A stretch of DNA of 64,000 bases, from contig NZ_CP039852.1 in assembly GCF_006228385.1 (NCBI RefSeq), positions 3,364,001-3,428,000 on the forward strand, in the 5' to 3' direction. The position numbers and the translations under genes were made by a program. This document shows, piece by piece, positions 12,439-23,416 of the stretch. The notes beneath the pieces were generated by a model, which made no database searches, was not told the DNA's origin, and saw only the letters and a program-made list of their open reading frames with translations. The stretch comes from Salinimonas iocasae. GTDB lineage: Bacteria > Pseudomonadota > Gammaproteobacteria > Enterobacterales > Alteromonadaceae. The stretch's first letter is position 1. Each line of letters opens with the position of its first letter.

Positions 12439-13560
12439 TTATCGGTAGCGAACAACTCGTGGTACGCGTGGTGACACGCGAGTCATGAGCTCATAAGATA
12501 TTGTGCCGGCACATGCGGCTACTTCATCAATACGCAGCTTTTCGCCCCAAAGCTCAACAAAATCACCAATTTGCACCTGACCAACCTCAGTAACATCCAC
12601 GGTCAGCATGTCCATTGAAACGCGCCCTGCCAGCGGTGCACGCTGACCATTTACCAGTACCGGCGTACCGTTGGAGCAGTGCCTTGGATAACCATCCGCG
12701 TAACCAATTCCGATAGTGGCAATAATACTGTCCTTCTGCGCCTGCCAGGCCTGTCCATAGCCTACGTATTCTCCGGCTTTAATGTGCCGTAGTGCAATAA
12801 CAGAAGCACGCAGTGTCATTGCAGGCTGAACACGGGATAGATAGGAGGCATCGTGCATAGGGTTACTGCCAAATACACCTAACCCAACCCGGTTCCAGTT
12901 GCCATGGGAGGCAGGCCAGCCAAGCGTGGCGGGCGAATTAGCGATACTGACGGCCAGGCCGGTTTGCTTCACCAGTCTGGCAAATTTGTCCAACTGATTA
13001 GCAGTGGCCGAATTATCGGTATCATCCGCACTGGCCATGTGGGTAACCAGTACACAGTCATCACCAATAATCTGGCTGTAGTCTGTCAGCGCGCGCTGCG
13101 CATCTTCAGGTGTCATTCCCAGCCGGTGCATACCGGTATCTACTTTAAGCCAGATCCCAGGCGGCTGTGTCGGCGTCTGTCTTTTTACCCATTCCAGCTG
13201 GGTGGTGTCATGAACAACAATGGTCAGATTTTCGTCGCGAGCCTGCAAACATTCTTTTTCCTGATGCGGGCCTTCCAGAACCACGATAGGCGCATCAATA
13301 CCGGCTTCACGAAGCTTAATAGCTTCCTCGGTAATAGCGACAGCGAAGGCGGGCGCTTTGTTTCTTAAAATGCGCGCAACATTGATCGCGCCATGCCCGT
13401 AAGCATCGGCCTTGATGACCACCATTGTCTGGCTTTGCGGTGCCAGACTGCACAGGTAGTCAAAGTTGTGAATAATGGCATCTGCGTGAATGATTGCCTG
13501 AGTTTGTCTGCTCAACGTATTGTTACTGATTGCTAAACCGGATGGCCAGCATACTAGCAT
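12439..13560 (-). CDS. alr: Alanine racemase
   Basis: PLP enzyme that interconverts L- and D-alanine for peptidoglycan. The PLP lysine lies in VVIKADAYGHG and the catalytic tyrosine region in IGIGYADGYPR; the C-terminus GTISYELMTRVSPRVPR is diagnostic. 373 residues from ATG 13560, slightly longer than usual at the N-terminus; a TTG at 13515 (giving LSRQTQAII) is an alternative start. An in-frame upstream ATG at 13647 is improbable. It is divergent from murQ across about 140 bases, tying D-Ala supply to the cell-wall salvage cluster. Confidence 0.93.
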   Translation of the reverse strand: MLVCWPSGLAISNNTLSRQTQAIIHADAIIHNFDYLCSLAPQSQTMVVIKADAYGHGAINVARILRNKAPAFAVAITEEAIKLREAGIDAPIVVLEGPHQEKECLQARDENLTIVVHDTTQLEWVKRQTPTQPPGIWLKVDTGMHRLGMTPEDAQRALTDYSQIIGDDCVLVTHMASADDTDNSATANQLDKFARLVKQTGLAVSIANSPATLGWPASHGNWNRVGLGVFGSNPMHDASYLSRVQPAMTLRASVIALRHIKAGEYVGYGQAWQAQKDSIIATIGIGYADGYPRHCSNGTPVLVNGQRAPLAGRVSMDMLTVDVTEVGQVQIGDFVELWGEKLRIDEVAACAGTISYELMTRVSPRVPRVVRYR

Positions 13561-13703
13561 GAAAATACCCCGGCATTGGAAGCCAGCCTCGCTACCACGT
13601 ACATTTTTAACGGTCGCTGGCAAAATTGTAGCGCTGCCGGCTTGCAAGCCGTTTTCATCAGGTCGATACTGCCCGCTATCATCAGTTTTACTACAGGTAC
13701 TTT

Positions 13704-14624
13704 ATGGCAGGCTCCCAGGAAACGCTGCTGGCGCAACTTGATACGCTCATTTCCGAAGGCAGAAACCCCGCAACCATGCATATTGATGAAGGTACATCGC
13801 TGGATATCGTCCGTATGATAAACCGTGAGGATCATCATGTAGCCCCGGCGATTGAAAAGATATTACCTGAAATTGCGGAGGCGGTGGATCGTATTGTGGA
13901 CGGTCTCAGCCGCAAAGGCAGGCTTTTTTATATCGGCGCGGGAACCAGTGGCCGGTTAGGTATTCTGGATGCGGTAGAGTGCAGACCGACCTTCTCTGTC
14001 GATGACACCCTGGTAAACGGCATTATCGCTGGCGGCGAGCGCGCCATCATGCATGCGGTGGAAGGTGCAGAAGATGACGAAGTTCAGGGTCAAAAAGATT
14101 TAGATGCCCACACCATCACCCGCAATGATGTAGTTGTTGGCCTGTCGGCCAGCGGCCGGACACCCTATGTGTGTGGTGCGCTTCGCCGGGCCAGCGATCA
14201 TGGCTGTACAACGATCGGTATCGCCTGTACACCTGAATCACCAGTATTGACGTTATCAGATATCGCCTTATGCCCGGTGGTGGGCCCGGAAGCGCTTACC
14301 GGTTCGACCCGAATGAAGTCAGGTACTGCACAAAAGCTGATTTTAAATATGTTGTCTACCGCGTCCATGATCAGGCTGGGCAAAACTTATCAAAATCTGA
14401 TGGTTGATGTGAATGCGTCTAACGAAAAGCTGCGGGCGCGGGCTATCCGTATTGTTATACAGGCCACCGGCTGCGAGATATCGATAGCAAAGCAGGCTTT
14501 AAGTGAGGCCGGGCAGAAGACCAAAGTGGCCATTGTTATGGTTCTGTGTAACGTTGATGCAACAATAGCCAGTGAGATGCTTCAAAACAGCAACGGTTTT
14601 TTACGCCAGGCAACAAAGGAGTAA
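13704..14624 (+). CDS. murQ: N-acetylmuramic acid 6-phosphate etherase
   Basis: 306 residues, full length for MurQ. It splits the lactyl ether of MurNAc-6-phosphate to give GlcNAc-6-phosphate and D-lactate. The SIS domain shows IGAGTSGRLGILDAVECRPTF with the catalytic Glu, and AVEGAEDD with the second acidic residue; GLSASGRTPYV and TGSTRMKSGTAQK bind the phosphate. First gene of the rightward salvage cluster; namZ starts two bases after its stop, so they are co-transcribed. No MurNAc kinase is seen in the window. Confidence 0.95.
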   Translation: MAGSQETLLAQLDTLISEGRNPATMHIDEGTSLDIVRMINREDHHVAPAIEKILPEIAEAVDRIVDGLSRKGRLFYIGAGTSGRLGILDAVECRPTFSVDDTLVNGIIAGGERAIMHAVEGAEDDEVQGQKDLDAHTITRNDVVVGLSASGRTPYVCGALRRASDHGCTTIGIACTPESPVLTLSDIALCPVVGPEALTGSTRMKSGTAQKLILNMLSTASMIRLGKTYQNLMVDVNASNEKLRARAIRIVIQATGCEISIAKQALSEAGQKTKVAIVMVLCNVDATIASEMLQNSNGFLRQATKE

Positions 14625-14626
14625 AT

Positions 14627-15769
14627 ATGAAAGTGTTATACGCACTACTCTTACTACTGTCAGTTATCGCGCTTCCCGCTTACGCATTGCAGGTCGCTGC
14701 CGAGCAACCGGCTAAGTACCTGCCATTGTTGAAGGAAAAGCGGGTTGCTGCAGTTGTTAACCAGACCAGTCAGGCCCTGGACGGGCATCTGGTAGATTTC
14801 CTGCTCAGTGAAGATATCAATCTGATAAAGATCATGGCACCGGAGCACGGCTTTCGCGGTAAACAAGCTGCCGGTGAGACGGTTATCGACAACATTGATA
14901 CAAAAACCGGTCTGCCCGTCGTCTCCCTCTACGGTAAGAATAAAAAGCCATCTCCTGATATGCTCAGTGATGTTGATGTATTGCTGTTCGATATACAGGA
15001 TGTCGGCACCCGTTTTTACACCTATATCAGCACGCTGCACTATGTCATGGAAGCCGCTGCCGAGAACGATGTGACCGTAGTGGTATTGGACAGACCCAAC
15101 CCTAACGGGGCTTTCGTTGACGGCCCGGTAAGACAGCCTGGCTTTACCTCATTTGTGGGTGTCGATCCGCTGCCATTGTTACACGGCATGACTGTCGCCG
15201 AACTGGCCCTCATGATCAAAGGCGAAGGATGGATAAATCAGGCTGAAAGACTAACCTTGCATACGGTAGCGGTAGAAAACTATTCACGTAACATGGCGAT
15301 TACCTTACCGGTTCCCCCCAGCCCTAACCTGCCTAATGCGACTGCCGTGCGTCTTTACCCGTCATTATGTTTGTTTGAGGGAACCACTGTCAGTGTCGGG
15401 CGCGGTACACCTTATCCGTTTCAGATCATCGGCCATAACAATGTTCGACTGGGCGATTTAACCATCACCCCTGAAGCAGTGGATGCTGCACCGTCACCTA
15501 AACTGGAAGGTACTGAGCTGATGGCGAGGGATCTTCGTCAAAGTGCCATGAAGGGTTTCGATATCAGCTTGCTGATAAACACCTACCAGCAGTTCGTAAA
15601 CGCCGGCGAGACATTTTTCAGCCATCCCGATTTTTTCGATAAGCTGGCCGGGACGGACGAACTCAGGAAAGCGATGGTTGCCGGGCAGGATGCAGCCACC
15701 ATAAGAAAGCAGTGGCAGCCTGAGCTTGATGCGTTTAAAAAACGCCGGGCGCCCTATCTGCTTTACTGA
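14627..15769 (+). CDS. namZ: Exo-beta-N-acetylmuramidase NamZ-like (DUF1343)
   Basis: 380 residues with a signal peptide of about 20 residues ending in AYA. Family motifs of DUF1343/GH171: MAPEHGFRGKQAAGE, LFDIQDVGTRFYTYISTL, LDRPNPNG and the FEGTTVSVGRGTPYPFQ stretch. In Bacillus the family member NamZ removes MurNAc from non-reducing ends of peptidoglycan glycans after NagZ removes GlcNAc. Position between murQ and a D-lactate dehydrogenase supports the same role, in the periplasm. The symbol follows the Bacillus name; biochemical identity here is inferred. Confidence 0.85.
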   Translation: MKVLYALLLLLSVIALPAYALQVAAEQPAKYLPLLKEKRVAAVVNQTSQALDGHLVDFLLSEDINLIKIMAPEHGFRGKQAAGETVIDNIDTKTGLPVVSLYGKNKKPSPDMLSDVDVLLFDIQDVGTRFYTYISTLHYVMEAAAENDVTVVVLDRPNPNGAFVDGPVRQPGFTSFVGVDPLPLLHGMTVAELALMIKGEGWINQAERLTLHTVAVENYSRNMAITLPVPPSPNLPNATAVRLYPSLCLFEGTTVSVGRGTPYPFQIIGHNNVRLGDLTITPEAVDAAPSPKLEGTELMARDLRQSAMKGFDISLLINTYQQFVNAGETFFSHPDFFDKLAGTDELRKAMVAGQDAATIRKQWQPELDAFKKRRAPYLLY

Positions 15770-15777
15770 TAAAACAA

Positions 15778-15793
15778 ACGGGTTGATACCCGT
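15778..15793 (+). other. Hairpin between namZ and the D-lactate dehydrogenase gene
   Basis: ACGGGT-TGAT-ACCCGT, a perfect six-base stem eight bases after the namZ stop, without a following T run. It may reduce read-through or stabilise the upstream part of the message rather than terminate fully. Confidence 0.4.
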
Positions 15794-15845
15794 GCGTTTA
15801 TCCCATTAAATGAGTTTATTACTGTAATGTCTGGATTCGTTACCG

Positions 15846-18662
15846 GTGCCTGAGAACGCGCTCTATTCAGTTAAAAACCACTGGCAGGCTTTTGTCACCC
15901 AATTAGAAGGTGTTTTAAAGCCTGAGCAGCTTATTCGCGATTTAAGTCGTCGCACCGCTTACAGTACGGATGCCAGCTTTTACCACCTCACGCCCCGGCT
16001 AGTGCTGAAACTCGACGACACAACGCAGGTTCAGCGCGTGCTAAAACTCGCCTGTCGCTGGCTGGTGCCGGTGACTTTTCGCGCCGCCGGTACCAGTTTG
16101 TCAGGACAGGCAATCAGCGATTCTGTGTTAATTCTGTTATCTGAGCAGTGGAGACAGACTGACGTACTGGACGAAGGCGCGCGCATCCGGCTTCAGCCCG
16201 GTGTTATTGGCGCTTTTGCAAACCAGATACTGGCGCCCTATAAACGTAAGATAGGGCCGGACCCAGCCTCCATCGCAACCTGTAAAATCGGCGGCATCGC
16301 TGCGAACAATGCATCAGGCATGTGTTGTGGCGTTAAACACAACAGTTACCACACGATGGAACACATGACGTTCGTGCTGTCTGACGGCACCCGGGTCGAC
16401 ACGGCAGATGCCCGGTCAGTGAAACAGTTTTATCGAAAGCATGACGGGCTGGTAAGCGCCATCAGGCGGCTACGGGCTGATGTGTGTGCTGACGAGGTAT
16501 TAACGGAGCGCATACGGCACCAGTATCGGTTTAAAAACACGCTGGGATATGGCCTGAATGCCTTACTCGATTTCGAGGAACCGGTAGATATTATTACCCA
16601 TTTGATGATTGGCTCTGAGGGGACTCTGGGGTTTATCGGTGATATCACTTACCGCACTATAAAACTGCCTGCTTTTAAAGCGACGGGCCTGTACCTGTTT
16701 GACACAGCCAGGCAAGCCTGCGATGCCATTGAAGCACTGTCAGACGCAGGGGCCGATGCGGTTGAGTTAATGGACGCCCGGGCGCTGCGCTCAGTAGCCG
16801 ATTTACTGGCCCCCTTCTCCACCCGGCCGGTATCCTCAGACAATGTCGCGCTGCTTATCGAGCTAACCGCTGATAATCAGCAGACGCTGGATAGCGCACA
16901 GGAATCGGTCACATCCTTTTTTGAAACTGAAAAAACAATTCACGCCCTGCAACCTTTTACCCGCGATATATCTGCAATCACCACACTATGGAATATCCGC
17001 AAAGGCTTATTCCCTGCCGTCGGGGCAGTCAGAGAAAGCGGTACGACGGTTATCATAGAAGATGTGGCTTTTGATCAACATAAGCTGGCTGACGGCATTC
17101 AGTTGTTGCAACAATTGTTTGAAAAATACCGCTACGACGAGGCCATCATTTTCGGGCATGCGCTGGATGGCAATGTGCATTTTGTTTTTACACAGCGGTT
17201 TGACAGCACTAAAGAAAAAAACCGTTATCGTGATTTTATGGAGGATGTCAGTAAGCTAGTCACTGACAAGCTTCATGGCACATTAAAAGCGGAGCATGGT
17301 ACCGGTCGCAATATGGCACCATTTATTCGGCAGCAGTGGGGTGGACGTGCGCTGGATGTAATGAAACGCCTTAAACATATTCTGGACCCGGCGGCCATTC
17401 TTAACCCCGGTGTCATTATCAACGATGATCCGGATGCGCACCTGAAAAACCTTAAGCAGTTACCGTCGGTCGACGAAGAAATAGACAGCTGTATAGAATG
17501 TGGATTTTGTGAACCGCAGTGTCCGTCTGCATCACTCACATTATCACCGCGACAACGTATCGCGCTGATGCGACGGGCAACGCAGTTGCCGGCCGCAGAA
17601 CAGGCTGAAATAAGAAAGGATTTTGTCTACGCCGGAGATAAAACCTGTGCGGCTACGGGTCTGTGTGCCACAGCCTGTCCGGTAGGTATTAACACGGGCA
17701 CCTGGATAAAAAAGCGCAGGCATGCCGAGTCACCCGACAGCCTTCATTTTATGGCTGAGCATTTGAAACTGTCGCACTCGCTGGCTCGCGGCACACTCAA
17801 TCTTGCAACGGGCGTTGCTGCTGTCACCTCGAAAAAGACGCTGCAAGCCGCTACCCGCTCGGCTCACCGCCTGAGCCAACGTATTCCTGTTTTCGCCCAA
17901 ACCACGCCAGCGGCCGCAACCACCGAGTACTTCGCCGGTCAGCGCTTTACAGACAAAGTTGTGTTTATCCCTGCGTGCCCCAACCGTGTTTTCGGCAGCG
18001 AAGACAAACAACAGAGTCTGACAAAAACGGTTGTTGAGCTTCTTAATAAAGCCAGCATCGAGGTGCGATATCCCGATGCACTGACGTCTTTATGCTGTGG
18101 TCAGCCCTTTGAAAGCCACGGCAATATGCAGGCTGCGCAACAGTACCGGGAGGCCTTTGCTGCGGCGCTTCAAAAAGCCAGTGAAAATGGCCGCTATCCC
18201 ATTATTACCGACAACAGTGCCTGTGCGCTGAGCAGCTTATCAGCGCAGGGAATAAAAGTGACAGAGCTGGCGCAATTTCTGAATGAGATTGTAGCTGCCC
18301 GACTGCATATTACGCCGGTCACGGAACCCATTGCGTTACATCTCACGTGCAGCAGTCAGCACCTCGATGGAGCTAATGGGCTTCGTTCACTAGCTGAAAA
18401 ATTATGTACCAACATTTTTGTTCCCAGCCATATTACCTGTTGCGGGTTTGCCGGCGATAAGGGTTTCACCACACCGGAGTTAAATCAGGCTGCACTGTCT
18501 CCCCTTCGCGAACAGCTTCCAGCTGAATGTAACAGGGGTATCAGCAACAGCCGAACCTGTGAAATTGGTTTGTCGCAGTCCGGCGGTATTCCGTATCAGC
18601 ACATTGCTTACCTGATGAACGAGGTAAGTGAGTCTTTACCTACTAAGGAATGTGGACGATGA
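15846..18662 (+). CDS. FAD/FeS D-lactate dehydrogenase (Dld-II type)
   Basis: 938 residues. The N-terminal half is a PCMH-type FAD domain plus FAD-oxidase C domain (AAGTSLSGQ, GPDPASIATCKIGG, GSEGTLGF, GHALDGNVHFVF). The C-terminal half has two 4Fe-4S motifs (CIECGFCEPQCPS and CAATGLCATACPVG) and cysteine-rich CCG blocks (LCCGQPF, TCCGFAGDKGF). The domain order equals Shewanella Dld-II, a membrane-associated D-lactate dehydrogenase feeding quinones. GTG start, weak ribosome site. Placed after murQ, it can oxidise the D-lactate that MurQ produces. D-2-hydroxyglutarate is an alternative substrate. Confidence 0.85.
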   Translation: MPENALYSVKNHWQAFVTQLEGVLKPEQLIRDLSRRTAYSTDASFYHLTPRLVLKLDDTTQVQRVLKLACRWLVPVTFRAAGTSLSGQAISDSVLILLSEQWRQTDVLDEGARIRLQPGVIGAFANQILAPYKRKIGPDPASIATCKIGGIAANNASGMCCGVKHNSYHTMEHMTFVLSDGTRVDTADARSVKQFYRKHDGLVSAIRRLRADVCADEVLTERIRHQYRFKNTLGYGLNALLDFEEPVDIITHLMIGSEGTLGFIGDITYRTIKLPAFKATGLYLFDTARQACDAIEALSDAGADAVELMDARALRSVADLLAPFSTRPVSSDNVALLIELTADNQQTLDSAQESVTSFFETEKTIHALQPFTRDISAITTLWNIRKGLFPAVGAVRESGTTVIIEDVAFDQHKLADGIQLLQQLFEKYRYDEAIIFGHALDGNVHFVFTQRFDSTKEKNRYRDFMEDVSKLVTDKLHGTLKAEHGTGRNMAPFIRQQWGGRALDVMKRLKHILDPAAILNPGVIINDDPDAHLKNLKQLPSVDEEIDSCIECGFCEPQCPSASLTLSPRQRIALMRRATQLPAAEQAEIRKDFVYAGDKTCAATGLCATACPVGINTGTWIKKRRHAESPDSLHFMAEHLKLSHSLARGTLNLATGVAAVTSKKTLQAATRSAHRLSQRIPVFAQTTPAAATTEYFAGQRFTDKVVFIPACPNRVFGSEDKQQSLTKTVVELLNKASIEVRYPDALTSLCCGQPFESHGNMQAAQQYREAFAAALQKASENGRYPIITDNSACALSSLSAQGIKVTELAQFLNEIVAARLHITPVTEPIALHLTCSSQHLDGANGLRSLAEKLCTNIFVPSHITCCGFAGDKGFTTPELNQAALSPLREQLPAECNRGISNSRTCEIGLSQSGGIPYQHIAYLMNEVSESLPTKECGR

Positions 18663-19996
18663 AAGCATATATGGATGTGGTTTATAAACAGTTTGATGCG
18701 CTGCACTGGCGCTCATTACACCAGCCGCATCTGACACTGGCTGATATCCAGCCAATCTTGCGTACCTTATCCACTTACACGGCTATTGATGTTTCTCTGG
18801 TAGGGCATTCTTATAACGGCAAGCCAATTCATCAAATACGCATAGGTCATGGGGACAAGCGAGTGATGGGCTGGACGCAAATGCATGGTGACGAACCAAC
18901 GGCTACCGCCGCCATTTTAGATTGGTTTAAGATATTGGTTAGCGCGCCCGCGCTGGTTGCACCGACTGCGTTTTTTTCACAGTGCAGACTGTGCTTTATT
19001 GTCATGCTTAACCCTGACGGCGCGCAGAGAAAAACACGTCGTAATGCACAGTCTATTGATATTAACCGTGATGCCCGCGTGTTACAAAGCCCTGAAGGCG
19101 TGCTTTTGATGCAGCAGGTGAAACGCTTCTCTCCACACATTGCGTTTAACCTGCATGACCAGAACCCTTATTATCTGGCAGGGGTTAAAGATAAGCACAA
19201 ACGACCGTCTACGATGGCTTTTTTTGCCCCGCCTTTTGATGCACAGCACACTGATGATCATAACCGTCAGCGCGCCAAGCAACTAATAGCCAGTATGCAT
19301 CACATGCTTGGCGACTACTTTGACGTAGCCATTGCCCGCTATGTTGATGGATATTCGGCACGATGTTTTGGCGACACCATCGCAGGTATGTGCAGTACGA
19401 TTTTGATAGAAAGCGGCGCGCATCCTGACGACCCGTGCCGGCATACTGCCAGAAAAATGAATGTTATGGCGCTTCATTATGCCGTGCTCGCCTTCGTTCT
19501 GGATGAAAGCCTGGCTTCTGAGAAAGATTATTACGCTATTCCGGAAAACGTAGAAGACGGCATGTGCGACCTGTTGTTAAGACATGTGCAGATGGGTCAG
19601 CCGGAGCAGCCGTACTTTGCCGACATTAGCATCAATGTATTGCAGGATGGTGCACGGGTTACCGATATTGGTGACTTGGCGTCCCATGCCGGGTTTACTG
19701 AAAAGGCCTGCGACAACTGGCGACTGTTGCCCGACAAACCATACCAGGTGACAGCACCTCTTACTCTAACGCAATCGCACTATCGCACGCTTTTACTACA
19801 AGGTTTCAACAGGTTTATTGATAGTGAACACAAACTTACTATTGAAACCTCATTACCGGTTGTGGTCAGTACCTCGGCTGCTAACGACATTCACGGCCCG
19901 GCTTTAGGGGCACGCCCGGCTATCCTGTTAACAAAGCATCAGGCACCGGGACTGGCGGTCATCGACGGTACCTTCATTGAGCTTGAGCCTGATTAA
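18659..19996 (+). CDS. M14 zinc carboxypeptidase family protein
   Basis: 445 residues. The Zn ligands are in QMHGDEPTATAA (HxxE) and FNLHDQNP (His), with LNPDGAQRKTRRN and DINRDAR substrate-binding arginine/asparagine motifs and the catalytic Glu in LIESGAHP. No signal peptide, so cytoplasmic. The ATG at 18659 overlaps the TGA of the upstream dehydrogenase (ATGA) with AAGGA ahead, so the pair is translationally coupled. In this setting it may trim muropeptide-derived peptides, as MpaA-type M14 enzymes cut gamma-D-Glu-Dap, but substrate is not shown by sequence. Confidence 0.85.
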   Translation: MKAYMDVVYKQFDALHWRSLHQPHLTLADIQPILRTLSTYTAIDVSLVGHSYNGKPIHQIRIGHGDKRVMGWTQMHGDEPTATAAILDWFKILVSAPALVAPTAFFSQCRLCFIVMLNPDGAQRKTRRNAQSIDINRDARVLQSPEGVLLMQQVKRFSPHIAFNLHDQNPYYLAGVKDKHKRPSTMAFFAPPFDAQHTDDHNRQRAKQLIASMHHMLGDYFDVAIARYVDGYSARCFGDTIAGMCSTILIESGAHPDDPCRHTARKMNVMALHYAVLAFVLDESLASEKDYYAIPENVEDGMCDLLLRHVQMGQPEQPYFADISINVLQDGARVTDIGDLASHAGFTEKACDNWRLLPDKPYQVTAPLTLTQSHYRTLLLQGFNRFIDSEHKLTIETSLPVVVSTSAANDIHGPALGARPAILLTKHQAPGLAVIDGTFIELEPD

Positions 19997-21830
19997 CCGG
20001 CGTCGATGTCAGCGTTACCGGCGAGCGGCCTGTCGGCGTCTGAAGCCCGAGCAGCGTTTTGGCCAGTGTAGTGAAAACGGCGCCTCTGGCTTCGCCGGAG
20101 TTTGTGACCTCAACGTTGTAGCCAAATGTTGCCAACTGCACATCACTGACAGATGAAAAGTCGGCGGCGTTATAGGGCGCCCGCATACTGACAAATACAT
20201 TCGTTGCTCCTGCTTTACCGGACTTTTCCATCAGCTTTTGAAAAAATGCGTGACGCTCTGTCAGTCGGCTACGTTGTTTTATCAGTGCCTGCGGATCTAA
20301 CCCTCCCATTTCAGCCACCGTGTGGGCAGGGGTGATGTCGCCGACTATAAGCACATCATCGCTATTCCATTGCTGCCATGGCGACTTATCAGGCAGTTTA
20401 ACGAGTGGTCGACATGCTACAGTGATCTGGCTTTCCAGCATTTTTATCGCGTTGACGATAGCGTTACAACGCGCTGCATCGGGCATAACGATTCGCCAGC
20501 GACCCTTCTGATTCAGTGGTAAAGCCTGTTTCCCGCCGATAAGTGTAAGCGCCGCATCGGCAAGGCGTTGTTCAGTGCGCGCCGCGTCGTTATCCGGTAG
20601 CTGTTGAACGGCTGCCTGCAACCTGTTTTTAAGCGGTTGCCGAGTGAATTGCCCTACATTAAATCGTGACTTGGTCGCGGCAACCCGCTGCGCTGACGCA
20701 GTAAGTTGTTCTTTATCCAGCTGACCCGCTTCAAGCTGTTTTAGCAGATAACGGCGTAGTCCGTGAAACGCTTCTATATCTTTGTCATTGCGTATCGCAA
20801 AAGGCATCAGTGCGATATCCGCCCCCGCATTGAACGTTTTAATCAGTGCATCCCGGGGTGAAAAGTAATGGGCGATTCCTGCCATATCCATGGCATCGGT
20901 AACAATCAGACCATCAAACCCTAATTCGTCACGTAGTACGCCGGTAAGAATGGGCTTTGATAACGTCGCTGGTACCACCCGCATTTGTCCATTGCGGGTT
21001 TTCACCTTACTGCCGTCCAGTTGCGGATACTGAATATGCGCTGTCATCACCATTGCCGGTGGCTGGTTTTCTATGATGGTTTTAAACGGTAAGAGATCGA
21101 CAGCATTGACACGCTGACGGCTGTGCGTAACTTCAGGCAGGCCGGTATGACTGTCTACATGTGTATCCCCGTGCCCGGGGAAGTGTTTGATAGCACTGAG
21201 GATGTTGTGCTGCTCAAACGCGCTGACCGTAACTTGCCCGAGGCGGGCTACCTGCTCAGCTGATTCACCGTAACTGCGCACATTAATGACAGGGTTCTGC
21301 GGATTCACGTTTACATCAACAGACGGCGCGAAATTGACGTTAAAGCCTAATAGTTTCATTGATGAGGCTAATTTTTCCGCCACCGCCTGTGCATATTGCG
21401 CGTCGTCATCGCCGCTTGCCCCAATGGCCATATTTCCGACAAAGCGCGTCGCAATGCTATCGGGGATGCGGGCAACCCGGCCGCCTTCCTGGTCGATGGC
21501 AATAAACAATGGTGGCAAATCGTGTTCAGCCATCAGGCTTTGCAACTGATAATTCAGTGCAACCAGTTGCTCTGTGCTTTGGATGTTTTCTGAAAATAAA
21601 ATGACCCCGCCAATGCGCCCCTCGGTCAGCAGCGACTTCAGTGCTGATGGCAATGTGGTCATGGGTGTACGGCACGATGCAGATGGCGTGTTATCTTCGC
21701 AGAAGTAGCGAAAATCCAGCATTAGCTTTTGTCCCAGCATCGTCGATGGGTCATCACGGTCTGCCGCAGTTGCCTGGCTGGAAAAAACGAAGAAGAGAAA
21801 AAAAATGCAAATCAGTGCAGCGTTATACAT
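19974..21830 (-). CDS. nagZ: Secreted beta-N-acetylglucosaminidase, GH3 (NagZ-like, two-domain)
   Basis: 618 residues with a signal peptide (cleavage near ATA-A). The TIM-barrel domain carries IDQEGGRVAR, the NagZ signature KHFPGHGDTHVDSHTGLP with the catalytic His/Asp dyad, and the nucleophile in VTDAMDMAGI. A further 250-residue C-terminal domain is present, as in the exported Bacillus NagZ and unlike the short cytoplasmic NagZ of enterobacteria. It removes GlcNAc from glycan or muropeptides. It is convergent with the M14 gene, overlapping it by 23 bases, and divergent from the NhaC-family gene. Confidence 0.93.
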   Translation of the reverse strand: MYNAALICIFFLFFVFSSQATAADRDDPSTMLGQKLMLDFRYFCEDNTPSASCRTPMTTLPSALKSLLTEGRIGGVILFSENIQSTEQLVALNYQLQSLMAEHDLPPLFIAIDQEGGRVARIPDSIATRFVGNMAIGASGDDDAQYAQAVAEKLASSMKLLGFNVNFAPSVDVNVNPQNPVINVRSYGESAEQVARLGQVTVSAFEQHNILSAIKHFPGHGDTHVDSHTGLPEVTHSRQRVNAVDLLPFKTIIENQPPAMVMTAHIQYPQLDGSKVKTRNGQMRVVPATLSKPILTGVLRDELGFDGLIVTDAMDMAGIAHYFSPRDALIKTFNAGADIALMPFAIRNDKDIEAFHGLRRYLLKQLEAGQLDKEQLTASAQRVAATKSRFNVGQFTRQPLKNRLQAAVQQLPDNDAARTEQRLADAALTLIGGKQALPLNQKGRWRIVMPDAARCNAIVNAIKMLESQITVACRPLVKLPDKSPWQQWNSDDVLIVGDITPAHTVAEMGGLDPQALIKQRSRLTERHAFFQKLMEKSGKAGATNVFVSMRAPYNAADFSSVSDVQLATFGYNVEVTNSGEARGAVFTTLAKTLLGLQTPTGRSPVTLTSTPVNQAQAQ

Positions 21831-22039
21831 AAGAACCTGTTGAATGGCGGCAATGTTTCGAATAGTACTTCACCCCCTGTTTAAATTAAATGGTTGCCGG
21901 TTAAGGCATCGCATCAAATGCGTTCAGCAGGTATCATGGGATTAAGCATATAAGAACGCGGGCTGAAGACGGACTATACCCAGAGGCTTTCATCTTAGAC
22001 CGGCGCAACAGAGAATCATAAGAATACAGGATTAATTAC

Positions 22040-23416
22040 ATGGACTGGCTGTCTATTGTCCCCCCCCTTGTGGCCATTGTGGTCGTTTTCTGGAAAAAAG
22101 AAGTCATTATGGCACTGCTTCTGGCTGTGCTGACGGCGGAGGCACTCATTCTGCTGCAATCGGCGGGCGAAAGTGTGCTGTTGTCGCCCATCACGTCGGT
22201 AGAACGAGTTATAGAGGTTGCAGCCAGTCCTGGCAATACACGGATATTGCTGTTTTCAGTGTTGGTCGGGGCATTACTGGCATATATCAGGGACTCAGGA
22301 GGCGTGGCTGCCATGGTGAACTGGCTAACCGGCAAAGGCGTTGCCAAAAGTCGGCGTCAGGTCGGCGGACTTACGATGGCCACAGGTATTGCTGTATTCA
22401 TAGAGTCGAATCTGAGTGTGCTGACATCAGGTATTTTCGCCCGCGGCCTGTTCGATAAATTTAAAATAAGTCGTGCCCGTCTGGCTTACATTATCGACAG
22501 TACCAGTGCGCCGGTATGTATATTGATTCTGTTGAATGGCTGGGGAGCCTTTGTACTGGGGATGCTGGAAACCTACGAGTTGCCCGTTTCTGCCGTCAGC
22601 GTGCTGTGGGGTACCGTGCCACTTAACTTCTACGCCCTGTTTACCCTGCTTATCGTGATTTATACCATTGTGACCGATAAGGTCCATGGACCAATGGCAG
22701 CCGAAGAACAAAAGCAGCATTTGCAGGAAACGCAGCTGGAAAGCGAGCCCGCTACCAAAGCACGGTTTATGACCATTCCTCTGGCGGTAATGGTATTCAG
22801 CATGGTGGGTTTCATGTTCTGGACCGGCGATGGTGTGCTGGCAGAGGGTAGTGGCAGTAAATCGGTATTGTATGCCACCGTGCTGGCTACAGCCGTCGCA
22901 TACTTGTTGCTATTGGGTCACAAACGGTTTACCCATCATGAGGCGGTGAAGGTCGGCTTTAAAGGAATGGGTGAGCTGCTACCGCTGGTTACGATTGTTC
23001 TGTTATCGCTGACACTGGGAAGCAGCCTCAAAGTGCTGGGCACCGGCGTCTTCGTGTCGGGCATAGTCGGTGAGTACCTACCACTGGTGCTCATCGTCCC
23101 GATGTTGTTCCTGGCTGGCGCTATCATGAGTTTCACCACAGGCACTTCCTGGGGCACGTTTGCTATTTTGATTCCTATCGGTGTACCACTTATCCAGACT
23201 CTGGGTTTGCCCCCATCGCTGGTAATAGCGGCGATTCTGGGTGGTGGTATTTTCGGCGACCACTGTTCACCGATCTCAGACACCTCCGCGGTATCTTCTA
23301 TTGCAGCAGGCTGCGATTTACTGACCCATGTCAGGACTCAGTTACCTTATGCGCTGCTTGCCGGAGGCATGACACTGATAGCTTACTTTCTTGCCAGTGT
23401 CATGATGATCGGCTGA
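22040..23416 (+). CDS. NhaC-family Na+ antiporter
   Basis: 458 residues with about 11-12 membrane helices. Family features: FIESNLSVLTSG, IDSTSAPVCILILLNGWGAF, FTTGTSWGTFAILIPIG and GDHCSPISDTS near the C-terminus. NhaC-family carriers include Na+/H+ antiporters and the malate/Na+-lactate antiporter MleN, so lactate or another cell-wall product is a possible substrate in this neighbourhood; that is inference. AGGATTAATTAC precedes the ATG. It starts 209 bases from divergent nagZ and its stop is three bases from the convergent VOC gene. Confidence 0.85.
   Translation: MDWLSIVPPLVAIVVVFWKKEVIMALLLAVLTAEALILLQSAGESVLLSPITSVERVIEVAASPGNTRILLFSVLVGALLAYIRDSGGVAAMVNWLTGKGVAKSRRQVGGLTMATGIAVFIESNLSVLTSGIFARGLFDKFKISRARLAYIIDSTSAPVCILILLNGWGAFVLGMLETYELPVSAVSVLWGTVPLNFYALFTLLIVIYTIVTDKVHGPMAAEEQKQHLQETQLESEPATKARFMTIPLAVMVFSMVGFMFWTGDGVLAEGSGSKSVLYATVLATAVAYLLLLGHKRFTHHEAVKVGFKGMGELLPLVTIVLLSLTLGSSLKVLGTGVFVSGIVGEYLPLVLIVPMLFLAGAIMSFTTGTSWGTFAILIPIGVPLIQTLGLPPSLVIAAILGGGIFGDHCSPISDTSAVSSIAAGCDLLTHVRTQLPYALLAGGMTLIAYFLASVMMIG

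Follow-up and report, generated by a model that had tools for sequence, protein, structure and literature searches.

The breakdown of N-acetylmuramic acid (MurNAc) from peptidoglycan has been described in bacterial gene sets that have the MurNAc-6-phosphate etherase MurQ in common, and in two of these, those of Bacillus subtilis and Tannerella forsythia, the product of ybbC is presumably the exo-beta-N-acetylmuramidase NamZ. In B. subtilis the genes murQ-murR-murP-amiE-nagZ-ybbC occur in one cluster, and in the Escherichia coli arrangement described in the same source (PMC5061867) murQ-murP-yfeW are found with murR, the gene for PBP4B (YfeW) belonging to the murQ operon. In T. forsythia, ampG-ybbC-murT-murK-murQ are reported on one transcript (PMC5388701), with MurT assigned to the sodium symporter superfamily and MurK to PF01869 (PMC5790795). 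The present analysis concerns a stretch of 64,000 nucleotides (nt) from Salinimonas iocasae (NCBI RefSeq assembly GCF_006228385.1, contig NZ_CP039852.1, positions 3,364,001 to 3,428,000 of the forward strand), here called the window, in which murQ and namZ are accompanied by the gene for a 938 amino acid (aa) FAD/FeS dehydrogenase predicted to act on D-lactate. Given that a sodium:solute symporter (SSF), a MurR/RpiR regulator and a BadF-type kinase are encoded at this locus in relatives, the window cluster is a pared-down form of a pathway type already known, with one unusual part, predicted to oxidise lactate. It is probably a reduced descendant of an alteromonad MurNAc-breakdown locus that would work in the steps proposed below.

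The locus and its described counterparts

The gene order in the window, as given by its list of open reading frames (ORFs), is alr (reverse), murQ, namZ, the FAD/FeS dehydrogenase and an M14 peptidase (all forward), a NagZ-like GH3 gene (reverse) and an NhaC-family carrier (forward). All seven genes had been named in a preliminary description of this DNA, and Pfam and NCBIfam models place them in the families given there. Its wording that they mostly overlap was too strong: murQ and namZ are 2 nt apart and namZ and the dehydrogenase gene 76 nt, the dehydrogenase and M14 genes overlap by 13 nt, and the convergent M14 and GH3 genes share 23 nt at their 3' ends.

MurQ (13704..14624, forward strand) passes the NCBIfam equivalog TIGR00274 with 403.5 bits (cut-off 302) and is predicted by family to yield N-acetylglucosamine-6-phosphate (GlcNAc-6-P) and D-lactate. 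NamZ (14627..15769, forward) possesses both the NamZ_N and NamZ_C domains (PF07075 and PF20732; 250 and 99 bits) and a PEHG motif, which we take to be the site of the catalytic glutamate and which recurs in 126/131 NamZ ORFs, fragments counted. It further matches the solved chain 4jja, deposited as a 'hypothetical protein', with 336 bits, and its N-terminus is signal-peptide-like as judged by eye, which predicts a periplasmic location. The NagZ-like protein (19974..21830, reverse; GH3, 271.8 bits) is a two-domain GH3 beta-N-acetylglucosaminidase, also with a signal-peptide-like N-terminus by eye, that aligns with B. subtilis YbbD/NagZ over residues 29-607, i.e. nearly the full length and both domains (292 bits). 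The loop KHFPGHG...SH, the histidine of which is presumably the catalytic residue, is found in 97/99 GH3 ORFs. The NagZ/NamZ/MurQ logic put forward earlier for this locus is borne out by these matches.

As in the B. subtilis cluster, MurQ, a two-domain exported NagZ and NamZ occur together in the window, and the loci of relatives additionally hold a MurR-type regulator and an amidase. The locus differs from that cluster in its Gram-negative host, in the linked FAD/FeS dehydrogenase and M14 peptidase, in the absence of a phosphotransferase system (PTS) MurP, relatives having an SSF symporter and a BadF kinase, and in the absence of regulator and amidase from the window locus itself. The T. forsythia operon comes nearest in its gene set to the fuller loci of alteromonads, combining NamZ, an importer of the symporter superfamily, a BadF kinase and MurQ, with the importers likened at the level of superfamily only. 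Unlike these loci it belongs to a member of the Bacteroidota, and the window itself, being without symporter and locus kinase, does not hold an operon of the T. forsythia type in which these two accompany MurQ. The word 'lactate' is absent from the main text of the T. forsythia operon paper (PMC5388701). With the E. coli murQ operon the shared features are MurQ and, at the loci of relatives, the PBP4B (YfeW) domain in an amidase fusion; import there is by the PTS, and neither NamZ nor a dehydrogenase is among the operon genes named in PMC5061867.

Conservation within the genus and fuller loci in relatives

The sample of relatives comprised 98 genomes, 59 of one genus (the window genome included) and 39 of the same order. 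A namZ match was recovered in 60 of them, namely all 59 genus genomes and one unlinked copy (G059), and a murQ match in 77, of which two (G072 and G076) are weak SIS-domain matches, so that 75 is the better figure. The two genes adjoin on one strand in 58/59 genus genomes by coordinates, the lone exception being G045, in which they are on different contigs. At the level of ORFs they are neighbors in 57/58, counting four loci with a 52-94 nt overlap of the longest ORFs; adjacency in G022 was judged from coordinates only. This adjacency is more than chance. Loci of up to 20 kb were available from 57 genus genomes and the window (58/59, G022 being left out), and counts from them are lower bounds, the loci being clipped. 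Clusters of their ORFs gave Alr, MurQ and NamZ in all 58, GH3 in 51, NhaC in 49, a gamma-glutamyltransferase in 37, M14 in 24, the symporter in 23, the dehydrogenase in 21, a kinase in 18, a regulator and an amidase-PBP4B fusion in 17 each, and a NagX-like protein in 14.

Many NamZ ORFs of the genus have 446-559 aa, about 65-180 aa beyond that of the window (L034, L037-L039, L041-L044 and related loci), and in single genomes (L045, L102, L062) the namZ ORF is split, by sequencing error or decay.

In 23/58 genus genomes alr is separated from murQ or namZ by an ORF of about 525 aa, the representative of which is a sodium:solute symporter (PF00474); representatives of further clusters are a BadF-type kinase (PF01869) and a MurR/RpiR regulator. 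A scan of genome records with a symporter alignment found 324 relatives, the best 80 of which were kept as the named loci. Having been picked by the symporter, these show its companions and not its frequency at murQ, and they overlap the genus set (13 of their 76 MurQ are identical to genus MurQ). They come from Alteromonas, Paraglaciecola, Pseudidiomarina, Pseudoalteromonas, Bowmanella, Colwellia, Thalassotalea, Alkalimonas and others, and hold murQ in 76, namZ in 71, a regulator in 64, a kinase in 57, GH3 in 47, the amidase-PBP4B fusion in 34, M14 in 30, the dehydrogenase and a NagX-like protein in 25 each, and NhaC in 15. murQ is followed directly by namZ in 69 of the 80, and the conservation expected in the preliminary description thus extends well outside the strain. 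The symporter gene is directly 5' of murQ in 49/80 and the order symporter, kinase, murQ is found in 25/80. The importer and kinase had earlier been listed as missing; this holds for the window locus, and likely candidates for both are encoded at the same locus in relatives.

Nine MurQ ORFs of 612-626 aa start like the kinase, with L126 and L252 apparently from one genome, and a fusion of a BadF kinase followed by MurQ was seen in three ORFs by Pfam and in two by NCBIfam (fusion ORFs L171:11594-13462, L148:11587-13431 and L253:1274-3154; also L126/L252, L173, L177, L244 and L256). This fusion is a strong hint that the BadF kinase makes the substrate of MurQ. Small residues at S133-P134-L135 and T94 have been described as the MurNAc determinants of MurK (PMC10465942). 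A motif alignment based on these determinants gave no separation of MurNAc from GlcNAc kinases, as Gly-Gly and Ser/Thr occupy the positions in the locus kinases and in a NagK-like kinase of the window genome alike.

The loci of relatives also encode a protein in which an amidase, a peptidoglycan-binding domain and PBP4B are fused, and the one member scanned passed the NCBIfam PBP4B model. Several loci have an upstream SH3-NlpC/P60 gene, and several an upstream gene of the mandelate-racemase family with an L-Ala-D/L-Glu epimerase match below cut-off (one member of each scanned), from which the peptide half of peptidoglycan is perhaps also handled at such loci. In the genus, the fusion of Amidase_2, PG_binding_1 and PBP4B (YfeW-like) has about 820 aa (L057:935-3397 and 16 other loci, some ORFs being clipped).

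Linkage of an FAD/FeS dehydrogenase to murQ

The part of the cluster that looks new is the dehydrogenase linked to murQ and namZ. Its gene (15846..18662, forward, with a GTG start as listed) encodes FAD_binding_4, FAD-oxidase_C, a 4Fe-4S domain (Fer4_8) and CCG in one chain, the domain combination of the FAD/FeS type known as Dld-II, and the protein is predicted to be a quinone-linked D-lactate dehydrogenase of this type. Dld-II of Shewanella presumably sits with lld/lut genes, unlike the window copy, which is at murQ-namZ and not at lactate genes. Like Dld-II beside lut-type genes are four homologues from other families (L070, L072, L073 and L078), 48-50% identical to the window protein, that adjoin such genes; the LutB-like gene of L078, the only one scanned, passes TIGR00273, and the LutA and LutC labels are by position.

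The activity could alternatively be directed at another 2-hydroxyacid, such as glycolate or D-2-hydroxyglutarate, with the place beside murQ explained otherwise. The dehydrogenase passes no NCBIfam equivalog; the models for GlcD (177.7 bits, cut-off 567.9) and YdiJ (136.7 bits, cut-off 1350) match it in part. However, D-lactate is the direct product of MurQ, the four homologues adjoin a LutB-type lactate gene cluster, and the role of YdiJ is probably taken by a distant relative, a 1016-aa frame elsewhere in the window genome (C1:1688951). We regard this alternative as highly improbable.

In the genus the dehydrogenase is found in 21/59 genomes, always at the murQ/namZ locus; in G045 it adjoins namZ, murQ being on another contig. 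A few of the genus copies are split or broken by stops. The dehydrogenase ORF of L088 is likewise split in a single genome, through sequencing error or decay. A class-wide sample of 369 genomes gave seven murQ matches at E 1e-60, too few for linkage, and an even sample of the family was used instead for the dehydrogenase, with a match at E 1e-150 in 101/295 genomes. Outside the genus, 78 of 98 dehydrogenase places were fetched (13/78 proteins being identical to ones in the named loci), and murQ is nearby in 30, lut-type genes in four and neither in 44. The tie to murQ noted in the preliminary description is supported by the 21/21 genus carriers and by these 30 family loci.

A tree of 106 dehydrogenases (21 from the genus, 78 from the family and seven from other families; midpoint rooting) requires seven changes of the murQ-linked label against a shuffled mean of 35.6, and 38/51 murQ-linked copies form one unmixed group under this rooting, the rest falling in smaller groups. 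An earlier tree with 43/44 murQ-linked copies on one side was discarded as biased, its loci having been picked by symporter. These distributions bear on the notion that the dehydrogenase, the M14 peptidase and the NhaC carrier form a lactate/peptide unit of their own that just happens to adjoin murQ-namZ, as might be suggested by the 38/59 genus genomes with murQ and namZ and no dehydrogenase, by the 48/78 dehydrogenase loci outside the genus that are without murQ, and by the abundance of M14 relatives (6285 matches at E 1e-20 among 7998 candidates scored). Yet linkage to murQ is seen repeatedly, in several families, and strongly structures the dehydrogenase tree, and neighborhoods due to chance would hardly be kept in Alteromonas, Pseudidiomarina, Bowmanella and Alkalimonas alike, which makes such a separate unit improbable.

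Within the genus, E. coli-type Dld (PF09330) is found in 1/21 dehydrogenase carriers versus 35/38 non-carriers (Fisher p 1.2e-11). The near mutual exclusion of the two enzymes is graded as suggestive, because it comes down to three independent pairs on supported branches, for which a sign test is not significant. A reason for the link of the dehydrogenase to murQ might be seen by analogy in engineered Corynebacterium glutamicum, for which growth on MurNAc is reported to be two-phased, the medium containing lactate as the first phase gave way to the second; the authors presumed that the lactate slowed growth and thought that dld overexpression might help (PMC6165865). A literature search confined largely to openly readable papers, the two main ones on NamZ not among them, yielded among the papers listed no account of a D-lactate dehydrogenase in such a locus, and the earlier claim that the combination is undescribed is uncontradicted within that scope.

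Supply of MurQ in the window clade and the proposed pathway

The locus of the Salinimonas-like clade of the window is without symporter, regulator and locus kinase. In a quick tree of Alr, MurQ and GH3 the window groups with G021 and G030, both of which are without the same genes, and the symporter changes four times in all; its loss in the window clade is the simpler of the readings and not certain. Neither a regulator nor a PTS MurP is present at the window locus, a negative that covers the locus only, since no search for RpiR regulators or PTS genes was made in the rest of the genome. The window genome does encode a permease that passes TIGR00901 (388 bits, cut-off 350), presumably an AmpG-like model, a cytosolic NagZ (456 bits, cut-off 207) and AnmK (478 bits), and with these three proteins ordinary recycling can feed MurQ from the turnover of the cell's own wall. 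The preliminary description had spoken of salvage of exogenous sugars: the catabolism of peptidoglycan sugars is upheld, and the external source is hypothetical in this species, as AmpG-like permease, cytosolic NagZ and AnmK would feed MurQ.

Several observations weigh against a MurNAc-breakdown locus of the kind proposed. The window genome has no symporter orthologue, its best match having 162 bits versus 800-990 in carriers (62 genomes), and the single protein in it that the kinase profile matches (253 bits) is NagK-like and its gene adjoins nagA, so that free MurNAc may not be taken up in this species. The sister group is mixed, with the symporter in G008 and G031 and not in G025 and G053. 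The kinase of the genus scores 290 bits against the GlcNAc kinase model NagK_SO3507 (cut-off 370), the operonic kinase only 129, and the kinase of Pseudidiomarina adjoins nagA-like and other nag-like genes; given this closer score to NagK and these neighbors, the locus kinase may serve GlcNAc. To these are added the want of an equivalog match for the dehydrogenase, its homologues near neither murQ nor lut-type genes and the small number of independent pairs behind the exclusion of PF09330, all given above.

Part of this evidence would equally fit pure self-recycling, in which MurQ serves only the cell's own anhydro-MurNAc, NamZ and NagZ are enzymes of wall remodelling or turnover, and nothing external is eaten. 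In its favor are the three recycling proteins of the window genome (AmpG-like permease, cytosolic NagZ and AnmK, the last matched in 92/98 of the genomes searched), the want of a symporter orthologue in that genome and the absence of regulator and kinase from its locus. However, namZ is kept beside murQ throughout the genus, an exported YbbD-type NagZ and the murQ-side dehydrogenase are also kept, and recycling in the style of E. coli requires neither exported NagZ nor NamZ. These points are indirect, and pure self-recycling is considered rather unlikely.

In the reduced MurNAc-breakdown locus that is favored here, the NagZ-like GH3 protein and NamZ would act in the periplasm, where they would remove GlcNAc and MurNAc from the chain ends of peptidoglycan, as their families and by-eye signal peptides suggest, and the linked FAD/FeS dehydrogenase would oxidise the D-lactate to pyruvate, passing the electrons to the respiratory chain. 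The M14 peptidase may trim stem peptides. In the fuller relatives the SSF sodium symporter might import MurNAc, the BadF-type kinase phosphorylate it and MurR/RpiR regulate the locus. As symporter, regulator and kinase are absent from the locus of the window clade, MurQ is probably fed there mainly by AmpG-NagZ-AnmK recycling, with extra MurNAc, if any, coming via some importer and the NagK-like kinase. The earlier interpretation is largely right in its chemistry and partly supported overall.

A broader proposal, advanced tentatively and with somewhat more doubt than confidence, is that marine alteromonads carry a self-contained pathway for eating the peptidoglycan of dead cells. It would comprise exported exo-hydrolases, an importer that takes up MurNAc by means of sodium, a kinase for MurNAc that in some cases is fused to MurQ, and a MurQ-specialised lineage of D-lactate dehydrogenases that sends the lactyl part of the sugar directly into respiration. 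Recruitment of the dehydrogenase to murQ would have occurred on several occasions, because growth on MurNAc is limited when D-lactate accumulates. Peptidoglycan is a sizeable marine pool of organic carbon and nitrogen, and text searches brought up no description of MurNAc use by alteromonads. Candidate genes for the import and phosphorylation of MurNAc in Gammaproteobacteria are provided by the locus, which also suggests that disposal of D-lactate, seldom discussed in cell-wall recycling, mattered enough to join the pathway repeatedly.

Flanking genes

The alanine racemase gene alr (12439..13647, reverse; TIGR00492, 352.6 bits, cut-off 168) is divergent from murQ. Its listed ORF opens at TTG, and its true start probably lies further inside, as most Alr ORFs of relatives have about 355-372 aa. 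The divergent placement given in the preliminary description is seen in 58/58 genus genomes with loci, alr being on the strand opposite murQ and namZ; alr was found in only 26/80 named loci, so that its link to murQ-namZ may be mere synteny.

The M14 protein (18650..19996, forward) has a zinc carboxypeptidase fold and passes PF00246 with a low score (32.6 bits, cut-off 21.6). M14 matches were found in 34/98 genomes, weak ones included. No signal peptide is visible by eye, and the motifs QMHGDE or QMHGNE, plus HDQ, occur in 55/55 ORFs. Its predicted structure is of high confidence (pLDDT 92.8), and a fold search matches carboxypeptidases in general. The nearest named relatives are from Salinimonas (75% and 60% identity), with another relative at 95%. 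Action on peptidoglycan peptides is a guess, predicted from gene position only; assignment as the murein peptide amidase MpaA was rejected, the NCBIfam MpaA model giving 19.1 bits against a cut-off of 157.

In several loci a DUF819 membrane protein, possibly a second importer, is encoded near the symporter or alr (L112:7367-8533, L091:15717-16880). Its identity with the MurT family was considered and dropped, as no paper joining the two terms was found and PMC5790795 puts MurT in the sodium symporter superfamily. The NhaC-family carrier of the window is at 22040..23416 (forward; PF03553, 141.5 bits). A gamma-glutamyltransferase gene, absent at the window locus, lies near an NhaC-type carrier or GH3 in the 37 genus loci that hold it (e.g. 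L093:345-2057; one scanned).

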